A DNA stretch of 64,000 nucleotides, taken from positions 1-64,000 of the forward strand of contig JAICHV010000007.1 in the NCBI GenBank assembly GCA_025924715.1. Direction: 5' to 3'. Below, one piece after another: positions 5,245-40,228 of the stretch. The stretch's first letter is position 1. Each line of letters opens with the position of its first letter. The stretch comes from Alphaproteobacteria bacterium. GTDB taxonomy: Bacteria; Pseudomonadota; Alphaproteobacteria; Micropepsales; Micropepsaceae. Both the position numbers and the translations under genes were made by a program. The notes beneath the pieces were generated by a model. It saw nothing but the letters and a program-made list of their open reading frames with translations. It searched no databases and was not told the origin of the DNA.

Positions 5245-5865
5245 TTAACCGGCGGTGAGCTCGACCAGGCCGTCCGCGGCGCGAATGGTGAGGCCGGCGT
5301 TAACCGCGCGCGACAGTTTGTGGGTCAGAAAGGGCTGAACCCCGCGGGCATCGACCTCGCTCACGGGCTGTTCGCCCCGGATGGAGCGCTCGACATCCTC
5401 GGCCAGGCGGATATGGGTGCCGGTCGCCCGAATGATGAAGGACGGCGCGGCAGGATCGGCCCCCGCCTCCACCCGCACCAACCCGCCGCGCGGCAAACAA
5501 TCGGCGCCCAGCAGGGTCGCGTTCATCAGCAGCTTGGCCCAATCCTTGCCCCAATGGGCCTGGGGGACATGCCATTCCAGGGTGACCTTGCCGCCTTCCA
5601 GCAGGCCCGAGACCAGGCGTCCGACCTCGTTCAGATCCAGTTCGGCGCCTGCCGAGCCGGCGGCGCCAAAGGCGATGCGCATGAATTGAATGCGGGCCAG
5701 CGCCTGGTTGGCGCTGGAGGCCACCAGCTTGAGAGCGTCCTCGCGCATCGCCGCGTCGCGCTCGTCCTCCAGCACTTCCAGGCCGTTGACCACAGCGCCC
5801 AGAGGCCCGACAAGGTCATGGCAAACCCGGCTCACCATAAGGGCGGAGAATTCTATCTCGTTCAT
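5245..5865 (-). CDS. chpT: Histidine phosphotransferase ChpT
   Basis: SALMVSRVCHDLVGPLGAVVNGLEVL followed by a degenerate ATPase-like domain; next to a receiver protein. Confidence 0.82.
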   Translation of the reverse strand: MNEIEFSALMVSRVCHDLVGPLGAVVNGLEVLEDERDAAMREDALKLVASSANQALARIQFMRIAFGAAGSAGAELDLNEVGRLVSGLLEGGKVTLEWHVPQAHWGKDWAKLLMNATLLGADCLPRGGLVRVEAGADPAAPSFIIRATGTHIRLAEDVERSIRGEQPVSEVDARGVQPFLTHKLSRAVNAGLTIRAADGLVELTAG

Positions 5866-5913
5866 GGCGCTTTCTACTCAGACTTTACGCTTGGTAACTG
5901 ACTCCAGCGCGTC

Positions 5914-5928
5914 TTAAGGAATTCTTAA
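5914..5928. promoter_or_regulatory. Putative CtrA binding site TTAA-N7-TTAA
   Basis: TTAAGGAATTCTTAA between divergent chpT and cysQ, 49-63 bp upstream of the chpT start; a GANTC (GACTC, 5900-5904) lies between site and gene. Confidence 0.55.
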
Positions 5929-5929
5929 T

Positions 5930-6703
5930 ATGGGTGCAACCGCAGCTATGCTGGCCGCGATCGCCGCCGAAGCCGGCGCGGTGGTGATGCGCCATTACCA
6001 GGCCGGTACCCAGGCGCGGTTCAAAACCGATGCCTCGCCCGTGACAGATGCCGATCAAGAGGCCGAAAAGCTGATCCTGGACCGGCTCGGGCGGCACTAT
6101 CCGAGGGTGGCGGTGGTGGCGGAGGAAGAAACCGCGGCCGGGCGAGTGGCGGCGATCGGCCATCATTTCTTCCTGGTCGATCCGCTGGACGGCACCAAGG
6201 AATTCCTCTCCCGCAATGGAGAGTTCACGGTGAACATCGCCGAGATTGTGGACGGCGTGCCGGTGTCCGGCGCGGTCTATGCCCCCGCGGTTTCGCGGCT
6301 GTTCTATGCGGACGCGGAAGGCGCCTTTGAATTGGCGCTCGCGCCGGGAACAGAGCCCGATTTCACGCGAGGCCGCCGGCTGTTCGCGCGGCAGCCCGCT
6401 GCCGAAGGCTTGGTGGCGGTCGGCAGCCGCAGCCATGGCGATCCGGCGACGGACGCGTATCTGAAACGCTTTGCAATCTGCCGTTTCACCAGCGCGGGTT
6501 CCTCGCTGAAATTCTGCCTGCTGGCGGCGGGCGAAGCCGATATCTACGCGCGCGGCGGCCGCACCATGGAGTGGGATATCGCCGCCGGCCATGCCGTGCT
6601 GGCGGCGGCAGGCGGCAGCGTCAAGACCTGGGACGGTATGGCGCTGCACTATGGCAAAACGGGTTTTGAAAATCCGCCCTTTGTGGCCAGGGGCCTGGTT
6701 TAA
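5930..6703 (+). CDS. cysQ: 3'(2'),5'-bisphosphate nucleotidase CysQ
   Basis: Inositol monophosphatase superfamily: DPLDGTKEFLSRNGEFTVNIA and EWDIAAGHAVLAAAGG. Confidence 0.85.
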   Translation: MGATAAMLAAIAAEAGAVVMRHYQAGTQARFKTDASPVTDADQEAEKLILDRLGRHYPRVAVVAEEETAAGRVAAIGHHFFLVDPLDGTKEFLSRNGEFTVNIAEIVDGVPVSGAVYAPAVSRLFYADAEGAFELALAPGTEPDFTRGRRLFARQPAAEGLVAVGSRSHGDPATDAYLKRFAICRFTSAGSSLKFCLLAAGEADIYARGGRTMEWDIAAGHAVLAAAGGSVKTWDGMALHYGKTGFENPPFVARGLV

Positions 6704-24581: not shown

Positions 24582-25727
24582 ATGGGACTTCCGTTGCGGC
24601 AGGCAGCCAAGATCGGCGCCTATGTGATCAAGAAGCACCTGTCGGGCGGCAAATACCCGCTGGTGCTGATGCTGGAGCCGTTGTTCCGCTGCAATCTGGC
24701 CTGCGCCGGCTGCGGCAAGATCGACTATCCGGACGAGATCCTCAACCAGCGCCTGTCCTATCAGCAATGCATGGACGCGATCGATGAATGCGGCGCGCCC
24801 GCGGTTTCCATCGCCGGCGGCGAGCCCCTGCTCCACCGCGACATGGCCCGGATCGTCGAAGGCTATATCGAGCGGGACAAATTCGTCATCCTTTGCACCA
24901 ATGCGCTGCTGTTGACCAAGAAGATCGATCAATACAAGCCGCATCCCAATTTCACCTGGTCGATCCATCTGGACGGCGACCAGGTCATGCACGACAAATC
25001 GGTCTGCCTGGACGGCACCTATGCCAAGGCCGTTGCCGCCATCAAGTTGTGCAAAGAGCGCGGCTTTCGCACCCAGATCAACTGCACCCTGTTCGACGGC
25101 GCCGATCCCGAACGCACCGCCAAATTCTTCGACGAGATGATGGCGATGGGCGTGGACGGCATCACCGTTTCTCCCGGCTATGCCTATGAACGCGCCCCCG
25201 ACCAGCAGCATTTCCTCAACCGGGAGCGGACCAAAACCATGTTCCGCGAGATCCTGAAACGCGGCAATGGCGGCAAGGCCTGGGACTTCACCAATTCCTC
25301 GCTGTTCATGGATTTTCTGGCGGGCAACCAGACCTATGAATGCACGCCCTGGTCGATGCCGCTGCTGACCGTGTTCGGCTGGCAGAAGCCCTGCTATTTG
25401 CTGGGCGAAGGCTATGCCAAAACCTTCACCGAGCTGATGGAAGGCACGGAGTGGGAGAAATACGGCGTCGGCAAATATGAGAAATGCGCCAACTGCATGG
25501 TGCATTGCGGCTTCGAAGGCACCGCCGCCACCGATGCCATTCGCCATCCGCTCAAGATGCTGCCGATCCTGATGCGCGGGGTGAAGACCGAAGGTCCGAT
25601 GGCGCCGGAAATCGATCTGTCGAAGCAGCGCCCGGCGGAATTCATGTTCGCCAAACATGTCGAACAGAAAATGTCAGCCATCAAGGCCGGCAAGTCCGAC
25701 ACCACAGAGATCGCGGCAGCGGAGTAA
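24582..25727 (+). CDS. hpnH: Radical SAM adenosylhopane synthase HpnH
   Basis: LEPLFRCNLACAGCGKIDYP (CxxxCxxC), SIAGGEPLLHRD, CANCMVHCGFEGTA; between ispH and hpnG. Confidence 0.95.
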   Translation: MGLPLRQAAKIGAYVIKKHLSGGKYPLVLMLEPLFRCNLACAGCGKIDYPDEILNQRLSYQQCMDAIDECGAPAVSIAGGEPLLHRDMARIVEGYIERDKFVILCTNALLLTKKIDQYKPHPNFTWSIHLDGDQVMHDKSVCLDGTYAKAVAAIKLCKERGFRTQINCTLFDGADPERTAKFFDEMMAMGVDGITVSPGYAYERAPDQQHFLNRERTKTMFREILKRGNGGKAWDFTNSSLFMDFLAGNQTYECTPWSMPLLTVFGWQKPCYLLGEGYAKTFTELMEGTEWEKYGVGKYEKCANCMVHCGFEGTAATDAIRHPLKMLPILMRGVKTEGPMAPEIDLSKQRPAEFMFAKHVEQKMSAIKAGKSDTTEIAAAE

Positions 25728-33600: not shown

Positions 33601-33743
33601 TGCCCGGGCTCCCCCCCGGCCGCTCGCTCGTGCTCGCGGCGCTCGTCGCTGTCGCGGGTCCACTGGACCCGCTCCCGCGCTATGCGCACCGCTCCTTGCC
33701 CCACAAACCGAGAAGCGCCGGTGACCAGAGCGATATCGCTCAT
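33597..33743 (-). pseudogene. Truncated duplicate of the hpnA 5' end (hpnA'), 48-codon ORF
   Basis: MSDIALVTGASRFVGQGAVRIARERVQWTRDSDERREHERAAGGEPGQ; its N-terminus mirrors HpnA MSDTVLVTGASGFVG; ATGA overlaps with hpnL and hpnA. Confidence 0.75.
33611..33675 (-). repeat. Dispersed hairpin repeat, copy A (inside hpnA')
   Basis: Minus strand: GCGGGTCC-AGT-GGACCCGC hairpin followed by AGCGACGAGCGCCGCGAGCACGAGCGAGCGGCCGGG; second copy at 59567-59632. Confidence 0.75.
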
Positions 33744-34717
33744 TGCGCGGGGTCCGGTTTGCGCAGCGCCGCGCGGCCCTCCAGGCCCTGCCAATATAGC
33801 AGCGCCGGCACGCCCAGCGTGATCTCCCGAGCCCGTTTGAGCAGCGACACCGCCAAGCCCAATTCCGCCGGCAAGCCGAACAGCGGCGCCAGCATGGCAT
33901 AGCCGGCTTCCTGCACGCCGATCGCGGCGGGCACAAAGGCTGCAACCGAACGCAGCGTGCAGAGCAGCGCTTCCAGCGCCATGGCATTGATCAGCGAGAC
34001 CTTGCCCCCCACCAGGCGAAAGGCAACATAAGTGGTCAGCCCGGCCGACATCCAAGCCACCAGATGCAATGTGGCGGATACCGCCAGCCGCGCGGGGGAA
34101 TCATAAAGCGCGTGGATCGCCTCGCCGAAACCGGCGCCTTGCTTGAGGCCCGGCAGAAAGCGCGCCGCCATGCGTTCGGCCAGGCCGGCGCCGCGCCGCT
34201 GCACCATCACCAGCAGCACGATTGCCGGCACCGCCAGCACCAGCACCGCCACCATCGCGGTCAGCAAGGCATCGCTGTTGGGAAGCTCGCCCAGATGGCG
34301 CAGGCTGAGCGCCACACCGAACGCCAGGAACGGCACCTGCGCCATGGCCTCGGTGGTCATGTCCGCGGTGACGGACGCCGCCGCATAAGCACCGTTCATG
34401 CCATAGAGGATCGCCAGCCGTACCGCCGTGACCAAGCCGCCCACCGGCGAGAAAGGCGATATTTCCGCGATGGCCTCGCGCACCTGCCGCGCCAGAAAAA
34501 AGCGTCCCAGCGAAAGGCGGAAAGCGGGCGGCACCACCACCCACCAGGCCAGCGCCAAGACGCCGGTCACCGCAAGCTGACACAGGCACAACAGGAACAG
34601 CCCGCCCAGCCCCGCGCGGGCCACCGCGTCCCACACGGCGCCGAATCCGATCACGGCATAGAGATAGACGGCGGCAATCAGCCCCGCGATCAACGCGATG
34701 ACGACGCCGAGCTTCAT
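33740..34717 (-). CDS. hpnL: HpnL, hopanoid-associated integral membrane protein (UPF0104/LPG-synthase TM fold)
   Basis: Multi-TM protein with SVAAFVPAAIGVQEAGYAMLAPLFGLPAELGLAVSLLKRARE; in the hpn operon. Confidence 0.85.
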   Translation of the reverse strand: MKLGVVIALIAGLIAAVYLYAVIGFGAVWDAVARAGLGGLFLLCLCQLAVTGVLALAWWVVVPPAFRLSLGRFFLARQVREAIAEISPFSPVGGLVTAVRLAILYGMNGAYAAASVTADMTTEAMAQVPFLAFGVALSLRHLGELPNSDALLTAMVAVLVLAVPAIVLLVMVQRRGAGLAERMAARFLPGLKQGAGFGEAIHALYDSPARLAVSATLHLVAWMSAGLTTYVAFRLVGGKVSLINAMALEALLCTLRSVAAFVPAAIGVQEAGYAMLAPLFGLPAELGLAVSLLKRAREITLGVPALLYWQGLEGRAALRKPDPAQ

Positions 34718-34722
34718 CGGGT

Positions 34723-35574
34723 TCAGGCCGGCAGCGGCTTGGCGCGGAAGCTCCACAAGCGCAGCGCCCCCAATGCGGTTTCGGCCAGTTGCGGCAGGAA
34801 GGCGGGGCGCAGCAGATCCGGTTCGAAGGCGTCCATGCGGCGGCGGTTCTCCGAATAGCAATCTTCCAGGAAGCGGCGGAAGGTAAAGCCGTCCAGGAAA
34901 ACGCTGGCCTGGGTGGCGGAGAATTCCTTGCCGTCGTTCATCTCCTTGCCGCGCTTGGCGGTGCCGATCATCCGGCCCAGAGCGCGCATGTAATAGCGGA
35001 ATGAGGTCAGCGGCAGCAGGGTGCGCGCGACAAAACCTTTGCGCGCCTGGGTATAAGCCATCCAGTTGACGAAGAAGACGATATGCCGGGTTTCCTCATA
35101 CATCAGCGTTTCAAAGATCGCGAACATCTCCTTGGGCAGGAACTGCGATTGCATGGCGATCTTGAAGACGCCAAAGCCCAGGAAAGAATCCATGCATTCG
35201 CCGAAGCCGAAATCCTTGAAGCGGGTTTCGACATTGTCGCTGACATCTTCCAGGGGACGCTCGGCGGCATCGATCCCGTATTTTTCGATCATCGCCCGGA
35301 TCAATTGGGCATGACGGGTTTCTTCCAGCCCCTGCAGCGCCACCGCTTCCTTGATCACCGGATCTTCGATGGTGTCGGTGAAGGCCTTGACGATCGCGCC
35401 GGCGCGCCGCTCGGTATAGAAAACCTCTTCCCAGAACGGCACCGATTTCAGCCGCTGCAACGCGGCCGCATCCAAGTCCGGCCAGGGCAGCGTTTGCGGG
35501 TCATAATCCGTATAGGTTTGGATGAAGTGCCGGCAGAACGTGTCGCGGTGTTCCTGGGATCCGATTTTCATCAC
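34723..35574 (-). CDS. Ferritin-like (putative diiron) protein 2 in the hopanoid operon
   Basis: ERRAGAIVKAF, LQGLEETRHAQLI, CMDSFLGFGVFKIA, LMYEETRHIVFFVNWMAY: E/ExxH...ExxH pattern; homologous to the adjacent gene. Confidence 0.75.
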   Translation of the reverse strand: MMKIGSQEHRDTFCRHFIQTYTDYDPQTLPWPDLDAAALQRLKSVPFWEEVFYTERRAGAIVKAFTDTIEDPVIKEAVALQGLEETRHAQLIRAMIEKYGIDAAERPLEDVSDNVETRFKDFGFGECMDSFLGFGVFKIAMQSQFLPKEMFAIFETLMYEETRHIVFFVNWMAYTQARKGFVARTLLPLTSFRYYMRALGRMIGTAKRGKEMNDGKEFSATQASVFLDGFTFRRFLEDCYSENRRRMDAFEPDLLRPAFLPQLAETALGALRLWSFRAKPLPA

Positions 35575-36467
35575 GTCTTCTTCCTCAGAAACTTCAGCGC
35601 AAGCCGCGCCATGAAGGGCACGAAGCGCGGGCGTTTCAGCCTGGGATCATAGGGCGCCAGACGGCGATTGTTTTCCGCCAGGCAGATCGCCACCAGTTCT
35701 CCCACATCGATATCGGAGCCCAAGGCCTCGGCGCCATTGACGGTGAAATTGTTGTCCTGCTGGCCGTTGGAGACATCGCTGGCGATGCCCAGGCGTTCAT
35801 AAATCAGGAACAGCCAGACCGCGAACACCTTGAGTTCGAAATAAGGCCGCCGCCACCACGGCATGTTGCGCCGGTGCCAGGCCACCCAGTTGACGAAGAA
35901 CAGGATGTGACGGGCTTCTTCATTGACCACCGGATCGAAGGTCTGAACCAGCTCGGGGGGGAAATAGCCGGTATCCTTGGCCGCCTTGAACAGGCCGAAG
36001 GCAAAAAAACTATCGATGCATTCGCTATAGCCGGTGACCATGAAGGCCCATTCGGGATTTTTCGGCTTGAGGTACACCGGCTCCGGCGCCAGTTTGATGC
36101 CATAGGCCTCAACCAAATTGGCCAGGACATGGCGATGGCGGCGTTCCTCGAATCCGTTCAGCTCGATCGCCTTGCGCAGCAGCGTATCGGGCACGCTCTC
36201 GGCATAGGTACACACATTCAGCCCGGCGCGGTTTTCGGTCTGCACCGCGATGTCCCAGATCGGCAGGGCGGTGATGCGCTTTTGCGCCTCTTCGCCCAAT
36301 CGCGGCCAATCCAGCACCGCCGGTTTGTAGGGATCATGGGTGTCGAGCAGCGTCTTGCAGAACAGCCGCTTATGCTCATCGCTGCCCCATTTGATCGGAC
36401 CGTCGCCGGGCATGGTGCCGGTGTCGCGCGTCAGATCGGGCGGAATGGCAAACGCCGGACTGCTCAT
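35571..36467 (-). CDS. Ferritin-like (putative diiron) protein 1 in the hopanoid operon
   Basis: TENRAGLNVCTYAE, LNGFEERRHRHVL, CIDSFFAFGLFKAA, VVNEEARHILFFVNWVAW; same layout as its neighbour; ATGA overlap. Confidence 0.75.
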   Translation of the reverse strand: MSSPAFAIPPDLTRDTGTMPGDGPIKWGSDEHKRLFCKTLLDTHDPYKPAVLDWPRLGEEAQKRITALPIWDIAVQTENRAGLNVCTYAESVPDTLLRKAIELNGFEERRHRHVLANLVEAYGIKLAPEPVYLKPKNPEWAFMVTGYSECIDSFFAFGLFKAAKDTGYFPPELVQTFDPVVNEEARHILFFVNWVAWHRRNMPWWRRPYFELKVFAVWLFLIYERLGIASDVSNGQQDNNFTVNGAEALGSDIDVGELVAICLAENNRRLAPYDPRLKRPRFVPFMARLALKFLRKKT

Positions 36468-36523: not shown

Positions 36524-37366
36524 TCATTGTACCGGAAAGTCTGCAAAGCCGCCAAGGCGAATATGGCCCGCCGCAATCCGGCTCTTTATATCCCCATCCA
36601 GCAGCGCCGCGAGTTCCGCGCCATAGCGATAGCCCGGCGCCGAGCCTGGATAGGGGCCGGTGGCAGGATGCAGATAAATCTCGGTCAGGCCTTCGGGCAG
36701 ATGTTCCACCAAGCCGGCCAGGCGCGGCGTGGTCATCGCGCCCGACCAGGCCAGACCAAAGACCTGGTTCGGCGCGGCGATGCCTTGGCGGCGCAAGCGG
36801 CGGCTCAGGCTGCGCGCAAAGGGCGCCGTCAGCATCGTCACCGGCGAGGCGCGGTAAGGTTCGACTTGGGCGAGCACATTTTGCGGCTCCAGCGGCACTC
36901 GCACGCCTGTGGCGCGGGCCGCCTTGGCACCGCGCAGCATCAGGGCGGCGATGGTGGGATGAAGATGAAAATGCTTATGGGCATTGACATGGTCCAGCTT
37001 CAGGCCGGTGGCGGCAAATGCGGCAAACTGGGCCTCGATCTCCGCGGCCAGCTGGGCCTTGACCTTCGCTGAGAAAAACATCGCAGCGCCGGCGCGGGCC
37101 ATGTCGTCGCGGAAATTGCCCCTTGCATCCACCAGATCCGGCACCGAGGACGCGGGCAGCACCGGCCTGCCGTCCACCAGCACCAGATGCAGCCCCACAC
37201 GCAAACGGCGCATGGATTTGGCGCGGCGCACCGCATCGGCCGCGGCGGCGCCCGAAACCATCAGGCTGGCGGCGGTCAGAACGCCCTCGTTATGGGCCCG
37301 TTCCACCGCTTCGTTGACTTCCCGCGCGGCGCCGAAATCGTCGGCGGTGAGGATGAGATTTTTCAT
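36524..37366 (-). CDS. hpnK: HpnK, YdjC/ChbG-family deacetylase
   Basis: MKNLILTADDFGAAREVNEAVERAHNEGVLTAASLMVSG and LDHVNAHKHFHLHPTIAALML. Confidence 0.9.
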   Translation of the reverse strand: MKNLILTADDFGAAREVNEAVERAHNEGVLTAASLMVSGAAAADAVRRAKSMRRLRVGLHLVLVDGRPVLPASSVPDLVDARGNFRDDMARAGAAMFFSAKVKAQLAAEIEAQFAAFAATGLKLDHVNAHKHFHLHPTIAALMLRGAKAARATGVRVPLEPQNVLAQVEPYRASPVTMLTAPFARSLSRRLRRQGIAAPNQVFGLAWSGAMTTPRLAGLVEHLPEGLTEIYLHPATGPYPGSAPGYRYGAELAALLDGDIKSRIAAGHIRLGGFADFPVQ

Positions 37367-37427
37367 GCGCGACAAGGGGAGCGGTGTGCCCCCTCCCCCC
37401 AAGATTTTCGCCGGCGCGAAACCCTTG

Positions 37428-37463: not shown

Positions 37464-38888
37464 TCACGAAACGATCATGTCTTCGCGGTTGCGCAGGAAC
37501 TGGAAGAATTCCACGCCCTCGCGCAGGCGGCGCACCAGCATGTCGCGGCTGGTGAGCATTTCGCCCACGATCTCGGCGATCTTGGAGGGGCGGAAATAGA
37601 ACTTTTTGTAGAACTCCTCCACCGAATTGAAAATTTCGGTATGGCCGAGATGAGGGTAGTTCAGCGGCGCGATCTGGGTGCCGTCATCGGTCAAAAGATC
37701 GACATCCGAAGCGAACCAGCCATTTTCCTTGGCCTGCTTGTACAGGAAGGTGCCGGGATAAGGCGCCGCCAGCGACACCTGCAAAGTGCGCGGATTGACT
37801 TCCTTGGCGAAAGCCAGGGTTTCCTGGATGGTCTCGCGGGTCTCGCCCGGCAAGCCCAGGATGAAGGTGCCGTGGACGACAATGCCCAGTTCGCGGCAAT
37901 CGCGCGAGAAGCGCTTGGCGACGTCGACCAAGAGGCCCTTCTTGATGTTGTGCAGGATCTGCTGATTGCCGGATTCATACCCCACCAGCAGCAGGCGAAG
38001 CCCATTGGCCTTCATCACTTCCAGCGTCTTGCGCGGCACATTGGCCTTGGCATTGCAGGACCAGGTCACGCCCAGCGGGCCCAAGGCGCGGGCCAGTTGT
38101 TCGACGCGGTCGTGATTGTCGGTCAGGGTGTCGTCGTCGAAGAAAATCTCCCGCACCTGGGGGAAATTCTCCTTCACATATTTGACGTCCGCGACCACGC
38201 GGTCGATCGACATGAAGCGATATTTGTGCCCGCCGATGGTCTGGGGCCACAGACAGAAGGTGCAGCGCGATTTGCAGCCGCGCCCGGTGTACCAGGACAT
38301 GTAAGGATGCAGCAGATAGCCGCCGAAATATTTCTCGACCTTGAGCTGCTTATAAAGCGGCAGCACCGAGGGCAGCTTGTCCATATCGACCAGGATTTCG
38401 CGCTCGGGATTGGAGACGATCTCCCGCGCGGCATTGCGCCAAGTCAGCCCTGCGATGGTGGACCACTCCGCGCCATTGGCCAGTTCCTGGATGGTGAAGT
38501 CATATTCATTGCGCGCAACGAAATCGAGCGCGGCGCAGGCTTCCATGCTTTCCACCGGCTCGACCGCGACCTTGGCGCCGATGAAGCCGATCTTGGCGGT
38601 GGGATTGATCTGGCGGATCATTGTCGCCGTGCGGCAATCCGATTTGAAGCTGGGGGTCGAGGTGTGGATGACGATCAGCTCATGCGCCTTCACATCCTCT
38701 TCGATATCCTTGAACGACAGATTGTGCGGCGGCGCATCGATCAGGCGCGAACCCGGCACCATGGCGGCGGCCTGGGCCAGCCAGGTCGGAAACCAGAAGC
38801 TCTTCACCTCGCGCTTCATCTGATAACGCGCCCCGGCGCCGCCGTCATAACCGTCAAAGGACGGCGCCTGCAGGAATAGCGATTTCAT
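37464..38888 (-). CDS. hpnJ: HpnJ, radical SAM protein of hopanoid cyclitol-ether synthesis
   Basis: SLFLQAPSFDGYDGGAGARYQMKREVKSFWFPTWLAQ and SWYTGRGCKSRCTFCLWPQTIGG (CxxxCxxC). Confidence 0.94.
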   Translation of the reverse strand: MKSLFLQAPSFDGYDGGAGARYQMKREVKSFWFPTWLAQAAAMVPGSRLIDAPPHNLSFKDIEEDVKAHELIVIHTSTPSFKSDCRTATMIRQINPTAKIGFIGAKVAVEPVESMEACAALDFVARNEYDFTIQELANGAEWSTIAGLTWRNAAREIVSNPEREILVDMDKLPSVLPLYKQLKVEKYFGGYLLHPYMSWYTGRGCKSRCTFCLWPQTIGGHKYRFMSIDRVVADVKYVKENFPQVREIFFDDDTLTDNHDRVEQLARALGPLGVTWSCNAKANVPRKTLEVMKANGLRLLLVGYESGNQQILHNIKKGLLVDVAKRFSRDCRELGIVVHGTFILGLPGETRETIQETLAFAKEVNPRTLQVSLAAPYPGTFLYKQAKENGWFASDVDLLTDDGTQIAPLNYPHLGHTEIFNSVEEFYKKFYFRPSKIAEIVGEMLTSRDMLVRRLREGVEFFQFLRNREDMIVS

Positions 38889-38907
38889 AGGCATGATTTT
38901 TCTATCC

Positions 38908-40059
38908 TCAAGACTCAGACAAGACGCCGCTGGGCGCGATCGAAAAGCGGTTGCCCCGCCAATGGACCGTTTCACCGAATTGCGACGCCACGAAAACCGC
39001 GAAACTCAGCAGGTCGCGCAGGGGCAAAAGCCAGAACGGACCGGCAGTGCCGCCGAAAATAGCATCGATACGCATTTTCAGGAACAGCCGGGCGGTCAGC
39101 GCCAGGCCGATGGCTGCCAGCGACAACACCGAGAAATCCAGCAAAACTGCGGCCATCAGGGCCAGCGGCAAGGCGAAGGTGACGACACTGCCCAGATGGC
39201 CCCAGGGGCTCACCGTGCGGATGGTGCGGGTCCAGCGCAGCTCATGCTGGAACAACTCGCGGGCATTGCGCTCGGTGGCGGTATGGGCGACGCCCAGCGC
39301 CGGAATCGCGGTGGCATAGCCCTTGGCACGAACCGCTTGGCCGATCTCATAATCATCCGCCAGATAATCGGCGAAAGCGGCGAAACCGCCGATCTCATCC
39401 AGCACGTCGCGGGTCAGCGCGATGGTCGAGCCCATGCAAGGCTCGGCAATACCGAAGCTGGTGCCCAAAACCACATTGGGCAGGAAATCATAGGAGGTGC
39501 CCATCGCCGCCAGCCGCGCCCAGGCATTGGGTTCGGCGACGGCCCCTTGATAAAGACAGGTCACCAGGCCGACCTGGGGCTGATCCAGCGCGCCTGTCAC
39601 CTTGCGCAGCCAATCGCGCGGCACCGCGATGTCGCTGTCGCTAAGCACCAAGATGTCGTGCCGGGCGACGGGAAACATGTTGATCAGGTTGGAAACCTTG
39701 GCATTGGCGCCGTAAAGGGCGTTATCGGCCACCACCGCGGTATCGACTCCCGGATAGCGGGCCTGCAGCGCCCGCACCACATCCAGCGCGGGGTCTTGCG
39801 CGTCATGGACGCCGAACAGGATCTGCACCTCGCCGGGATAATCCTGGGCAAAGAAGCTTTCGAGATTTTCCAAGAGCCCGGGCTCGCCGCGATGCAGGGG
39901 CTTGAGAATGGTCACGGCGGCGAAATGCGCCGGCTCGGCATGGCCGGCGCGCATGAAGCGGCCCACCAATAGGGCCGCCAGGACCGCATAAAGCGCTCCG
40001 ATCATCGAAAGCCCAGCCAAAGCCAGGCCCAGTCCCGTCGCAATGATAGTCATGCCCAT
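38908..40059 (-). CDS. hpnI: HpnI, hopanoid glycosyltransferase (GT21-like)
   Basis: VTILKPLHRGEPGLLENLESFFAQDYP, LVLSDSDIAVPRDWL, ELFQHELRWTRTIR (QxxRW). Confidence 0.92.
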   Translation of the reverse strand: MGMTIIATGLGLALAGLSMIGALYAVLAALLVGRFMRAGHAEPAHFAAVTILKPLHRGEPGLLENLESFFAQDYPGEVQILFGVHDAQDPALDVVRALQARYPGVDTAVVADNALYGANAKVSNLINMFPVARHDILVLSDSDIAVPRDWLRKVTGALDQPQVGLVTCLYQGAVAEPNAWARLAAMGTSYDFLPNVVLGTSFGIAEPCMGSTIALTRDVLDEIGGFAAFADYLADDYEIGQAVRAKGYATAIPALGVAHTATERNARELFQHELRWTRTIRTVSPWGHLGSVVTFALPLALMAAVLLDFSVLSLAAIGLALTARLFLKMRIDAIFGGTAGPFWLLPLRDLLSFAVFVASQFGETVHWRGNRFSIAPSGVLSES

Positions 40060-40228
40060 CTCGGTGCCCCCACCGCAATACGCTTTATATCTAATGCGGG
40101 GGGCAGGGTGGTGAAAGGGTAAACGGCGCACCGATCACGGAACTTGGGTCTGATTTCGCTCAATAAAAGGCAATAATCCGCCTCTAGGGGCGATTTCGCG
40201 GGACCGTGGCCATGCGGCCACTGTGGCG

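Follow-up and report, generated by a model that had tools for sequence, protein, structure and literature searches.

A family of putative R2-like diiron oxygenases associated with extended hopanoids as candidate side-chain hydroxylases

We describe a previously unnamed and undescribed protein family within the known diiron class, represented by two adjacent genes, A and B, in a 64,000-nucleotide contig stretch from a micropepsaceous alphaproteobacterium (the window). The family is almost confined to producers of extended hopanoids. A and B are probably soluble R2-like diiron oxygenases for extended hopanoids, with B as a C-31 hydroxylase and A as a C-30 hydroxylase, desaturation being the alternative for A. 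More specifically, we propose tentatively, and at rather less than even confidence, that two O2-dependent diiron hydroxylases act in sequence, B at C-31 to yield bacteriohopanepentol and A at C-30 to yield bacteriohopanehexol. The substrate, the carbon position (numbered as is customary for these lipids) and the way in which the two proteins share the work are those that we infer, and no better candidates have so far emerged for the enzymes that add extra hydroxyls to the hopanoid tail. Since bacteriohopanepentols and -hexols serve as sediment biomarkers, the family offers concrete, testable candidate genes; if the proposal is true, it would explain lineage differences in pentol and hexol content, make the trait predictable from genomes and turn the A/B genes into lipid markers.

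Two paralogous genes in a hopanoid operon

The original prediction of two adjacent homologous genes between hpnL and hpnK holds: both open reading frames are present (Table 1), and the two proteins align without gaps over 271 residues at 33% identity (E=2e-59). A search of the source genome found no further copy of either. As assigned with NCBIfam, the gene run in the window reads HpnI-J-K-B-A-L-A-B-C-D-E-SHC, our B and A standing between HpnK and HpnL.

Table 1. Coordinates of A, B and the hpn genes discussed in the text (window numbering)
Feature	Position	Strand	Basis and assignment
Protein B, putative diiron oxygenase	35571-36467	minus	ORF, 298 aa; proposed BHT side-chain (C-31) hydroxylase
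Protein A, paralogous putative diiron oxygenase	34723-35571	minus	ORF, 282 aa with ATG start; proposed second hydroxylase (C-30) or desaturase
hpnK (deacetylase), flanking	36524-37402	minus	TIGR03473, 346.9 bits vs cut-off 232.6
hpnL, flanking	33740-34717, longest ORF to 34861	minus	TIGR03476, 248.8 bits vs cut-off 195.65
hpnJ (radical SAM, cyclitol ether), neighbour	37464-38975 (longest ORF)	minus	TIGR03471, 742 bits
hpnI (glycosyltransferase), neighbour	38908-40131 (longest ORF)	minus	TIGR03472, 448 bits
hpnH (adenosylhopene transferase)	24582-25535	plus	TIGR03470; presence predicts the A/B family

The two genes had been described as joined by an ATGA overlap, which needs correcting, as the overlap does not arise from an ATG start in that way: the junction is GTGATGA, and A begins either at the GTG at 35572-35574 (ORF 34723-35574, 283 aa), with a 4-nt overlap (GTGA), or at the conserved ATG, with a 1-nt overlap (TGATG). 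Homologues of A begin with MKIG, matching the ATG. The likely ATG of hpnL lies 5 nt past the stop codon of A and, taken together with the GTGATGA junction, this makes A and B look like part of one operon.

Within the window's genus B holds its position between hpnK and hpnL, which bears out the hopanoid tie that had been suspected. In four same-genus genomes lacking B (L163, L165, L166 and L167), hpnK is followed directly by hpnL. A further locus (L164, G010:C67) retains a decayed remnant of B at about 5676-5960, between hpnL and hpnK, in a genome otherwise without the family, indicating recent loss. The genes inserted between B and hpnK at same-genus loci are unrelated (acyltransferase, beta-lactamase-like, pentapeptide repeats). 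In one same-genus genome the gene between B and hpnK is of the Acyl_transf_3 type (L047 10530-11732); acylated hopanoids occur in some Rhodospirillales.

A conserved six-ligand site and a predicted R2-like fold

The paired ExxH motifs noticed in the original prediction are both present; two further ligands had been overlooked, and the full predicted set comprises six residues. In B these are E78, E108, H111, E149, E184 and H187, in the order E, ExxH, E, ExxH, and in A they are E54, E84, H87, E125, E160 and H163. The shared C(M/I)DSF segment matters because a ligand Glu immediately precedes its Cys. Conservation was read from three successive alignments, the first of 23 members, the second of 31 diverse ones and the third of 178 non-redundant ones: in the last of these E78, E108, E149, E184 and H187 never vary, and one protein has Q in place of H111. 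As judged by these alignments, the conservation of the putative 2-His/4-carboxylate set is more than chance.

AlphaFold2 models, built from the window and related sequences, reached a mean pLDDT of 85.6 for B and 86.4 for A, and in both models the predicted ligands lie on four successive long core helices, where they would form one cluster. When the models were compared with the PDB using Foldseek, the best 50 matches of each were all R2 or R2-like proteins (NrdF/NrdB and R2-like ligand-binding oxidases), with probabilities mostly of 0.96-1.0, modest E-values of 0.004-0.08, TM-scores of about 0.5 and identities of about 10-16%. The six conserved ligands, their four-helix placement in the models and these matches lend weight to the earlier suggestion of a dinuclear-metal, ferritin-like/R2-like fold; A and B would bind metal and use O2. 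Residues ~203-228 of B, located after the ligand helices, form a Trp/Arg-rich hydrophobic stretch that is absent from A and is a possible site of membrane contact.

No Pfam or NCBIfam family covers A or B above threshold. In Pfam all matches stay below the gathering cut-offs, those of AurF (PF11583; 13.8 vs 29.6 bits), Ferritin_2 (PF13668; 19.3 vs 24.7) and Rubrerythrin (PF02915; 17.3 vs 22.8), and the faint similarity to these three families involves part of the helical bundle. The Ferritin_2 and Rubrerythrin matches, sub-threshold as they are, would suit iron storage or stress proteins of ferritin or rubrerythrin type that merely travel with hpn genes; we consider this most improbable, as the nearest folds are R2-like and not ferritin-like, and the tie to HpnH described below is strict even where the gene lies far from the hpn cluster (Acetobacteraceae). 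The sole NCBIfam family touched is AcsF (NF010172), reached by 10 of 34 members with a best E-value of 1e-4, and A scores 13.4 bits there against a curated cut-off of 391. The best PDB profile match is MiaE (5ux1) at a non-significant E-value of 0.17. With faint profile contact to MiaE and AcsF and no curated cut-off passed, the family stands apart within the ferritin-like/R2-like class.

R2lox and the class I ribonucleotide reductase beta subunits (NrdF/NrdB) share with A and B a helical fold of similar length, and their carboxylate-bridged dinuclear metal site can be likened to the predicted one. They differ in context, which is hopanoid and not nucleotide metabolism for A and B, and no sequence-level relation was detected: a phmmer search with A and B against the PDB found no chain up to E=10, and so detected no sequence homology with NrdB/NrdF. 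MiaE, the tRNA ms2io6A hydroxylase, uses a diiron site to hydroxylate a carbon of isoprenoid origin, although both its substrate and its context differ from those of A and B. AcsF, the aerobic Mg-protoporphyrin monomethyl ester cyclase, is likewise of the diiron type and oxidises a CH2 in a side chain, but in a chlorophyll context, where that of A and B is hopanoid.

Distribution with HpnH and HpnJ

HpnH is the entry enzyme of extended hopanoids. Among 386 Alphaproteobacteria surveyed, the family was found in 26 genomes, HpnH in 105 and HpnJ in 31. All 26 family genomes carry HpnH (p=2e-16 against 105/386 overall, and 1e-13 with the window's own genus left out), p-values that overstate independence, as the surveyed genomes are related. 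By the names of plasmid contigs that matched sampled genomes (Commensalibacter melissae, Formicincola oecophyllae, Kozakia baliensis DSM 14400, Acidibrevibacterium fodinaquatile and Methylobacterium bullatum), one sampled family is Acetobacteraceae and one sampled order is that of Methylobacterium. In Acetobacteraceae the family is present in 60/120 genomes and HpnH in 103/120, with HpnH found in 59 of the 60 family genomes; in the Methylobacterium order the family is present in 0/150 and HpnH in 27/150 (p=5e-9 for the contrast between the two groups). In one genome of the latter order we noted a tandem pair of HpnH genes (G612:C59:120431-122756). Finally, HpnH is present in 15 of 17 further family genomes reached via loci, including those of Caulobacter, Burkholderia, Cupriavidus, Dyella and Sphingomonas, and the two without it are metagenome bins.

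A scan of GTDB species genomes yielded at least 559 confirmed relatives, and the 80 loci fetched are mostly hpn clusters of Alphaproteobacteria, Sphingomonas, Dyella, Nevskia and Cupriavidus. The phylum-wide sample yielded no family genomes beyond the alphaproteobacterial ones found before and is of little help for beta- and gammaproteobacterial lineages, whose coverage comes from named loci and not from even sampling. Beyond the lineages surveyed, more-hydroxylated hopanoids are also produced by methanotrophs, Azotobacter and cyanobacteria.

As judged by a tree of 178 proteins, A and B are ancient paralogues that form two deep clades (38 proteins in the A clade, 140 in the B clade; support 1.0), with 1.33 substitutions per site on the branch between them. 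In most genomes B is present alone, and A is found only together with B: in 16 of the 60 family-bearing Acetobacteraceae, in G102, G150, G419 and G405, and in the window's subclade. In the one apparent A-only genome (G018), A sits at a contig end. In Acetobacteraceae, B-then-A tandems recur at a distance from the hpn genes. At two loci of that family (L221 and L209) B, away from the hpn genes, adjoins a ClpP-type protease gene; another (L266) holds two B copies with equal match scores, 13.5 kb apart (G448:C1:1003715-1004602 and 1017221-1018108). G102 (L171/L172) is a hopanoid producer that lacks HpnJ, and its hpnH/G lies between A (77% identical) and B. No reductase or partner gene was found beside A or B at the Acetobacteraceae, Burkholderia and G102 loci, where the neighbours encode ClpP, a nitronate-monooxygenase-like protein, an AAA ATPase and unrelated proteins.

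These distributions bear on the earlier proposal that A and B work as a heteromer alongside HpnI/J/K in the formation or maturation of the cyclitol ether. In the window's genus A and B do lie within an hpnI-J-K-B-(A)-L run, and a similar B-containing run is seen in Sphingomonas, Dyella and Nevskia. However, HpnJ is present in 13 and absent from 13 of the 26 family genomes, which leaves the role unsupported, the family is missing from 18 of the 31 HpnJ genomes, and once HpnH is taken into account it shows no significant association with HpnJ outside the window's genus (p=0.13). Methylobacterium bullatum (G317), from the genus in which the BHT cyclitol ether was first identified, has HpnJ but no family member. 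We therefore reject the partnership on HpnJ co-occurrence; in addition, B remains beside hpnL in two same-genus genomes while hpnJ is located elsewhere. An obligate A/B heteromer is likewise rejected, as B is common without A. Overall, we regard assistance to HpnI/J/K as very improbable.

Correspondence with bacteriohopanepentol and -hexol production

A 2025 study that measured hopanoids in 54 strains reported pentols and hexols as common in Rhodospirillales and Sphingomonadales and absent in Hyphomicrobiales; the responsible genes were given as unknown, and inspection of the surroundings of hpn clusters produced no candidate (PMC12583986). Strong pentol producers measured there include Sphingomonas mali (90% pentol plus hexol), Komagataeibacter europaeus and Enhydrobacter aerosaccus, the hexol makers include Asaia siamensis, Nitrospirillum amazonense and Enhydrobacter, and Novosphingobium rosa and Sphingomonas changbaiensis are pentol-negative strains from family-bearing lineages. 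Among the papers that we searched, none connects hopanoids with a ferritin-like protein or identifies a gene for pentol. The family's presence in Acetobacteraceae and Sphingomonadales and its absence from the 150 genomes of the Methylobacterium order parallel the published distribution, a strong correspondence between lineages, though one clustered on the phylogeny. A reaction that needs extended hopanoids, does not need the cyclitol-ether enzymes and occurs in these lineages fits the pentol/hexol trait.

The named pentol matches comprise two measured type strains, matched strain for strain, and one at the level of the species, all of them positives. Sphingomonas formosensis CC-Nfb-2, which carries B (L079), has 23% pentol plus hexol and 1% unsaturated hopanoids (PMC12583986); Kozakia baliensis DSM 14400, which carries B and A (G441, 100% plasmid match), has 29% and 56%, respectively (PMC12583986). 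Burkholderia cenocepacia carries B (species-level match) and produces pentol cyclitol ether and Delta6 forms (PMC8560942). One measured strain counts against the pentol reading: Rhizomicrobium palustre, which may be close to the window's genus, has 1% pentol only (PMC12583986).

Since unsaturated hopanoids are found in Kozakia and in B. cenocepacia as well, these two cannot separate a hydroxylase from a desaturase. The family could thus be the missing hopanoid ring desaturase (Delta6 and/or Delta11) instead of a side-chain hydroxylase: desaturases occur among R2-like and ferritin-like folds, and the hopanoid desaturase gene is likewise without assignment. We consider this unlikely for the family as a whole, given that S. 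formosensis combines B and abundant pentol and hexol with hardly any unsaturation, that the measured Sphingomonadales have 0-1% unsaturated hopanoids while B is standard in the fetched Sphingomonas hpn clusters, and that Afipia broomeae (Hyphomicrobiales) has 43% unsaturated hopanoids while the family is missing from the sampled Methylobacterium order (Afipia was not identified among these genomes). These points bear on B, and a desaturase remains the alternative for A. The O2-dependent hopanoid modifiers already proposed for unsaturation, HpnX and sterol desaturase family proteins, are of the sterol-desaturase/fatty-acid-hydroxylase type, a protein family different from that of A and B (PMC12583986, PMC6460317).

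Returning to the hydroxylase reading, hexols are rarer than pentols and, in the strains measured, restricted to Rhodospirillales (PMC12583986), a pattern mirrored by A, which is less common than B and occurs within the distribution of B, and it is on this basis that we propose C-31 for B and C-30 for A. Most likely, B would activate O2 at its predicted diiron site and hydroxylate the unactivated CH2 beside the tetrol of bacteriohopanetetrol (C-31), yielding bacteriohopanepentol. HpnI/K/J may then convert the pentol to pentol cyclitol ether, or leave it as pentol. A would most likely perform the next hydroxylation (C-30) to give the hexol, with Delta6/Delta11 ring desaturation as its main alternative.

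A different O2-dependent reaction on hopanoids, either oxidation of ribosylhopane or BHT at C-32 to a ketone or a modification not yet seen, would share the nesting of the family in HpnH genomes, and a 32-oxo intermediate towards pentol has been proposed (PMC12583986). However, nothing specific favours the C-32 ketone over direct hydroxylation, and a separate hydratase would be required, so we regard such a reaction as rather doubtful. If the proposed hydroxylases do need O2, pentols and hexols made by this route would record oxic conditions. Hydroxylated aminohopanoids are also made by anaerobes, Desulfovibrio among them, and an O2-independent route must therefore exist elsewhere.
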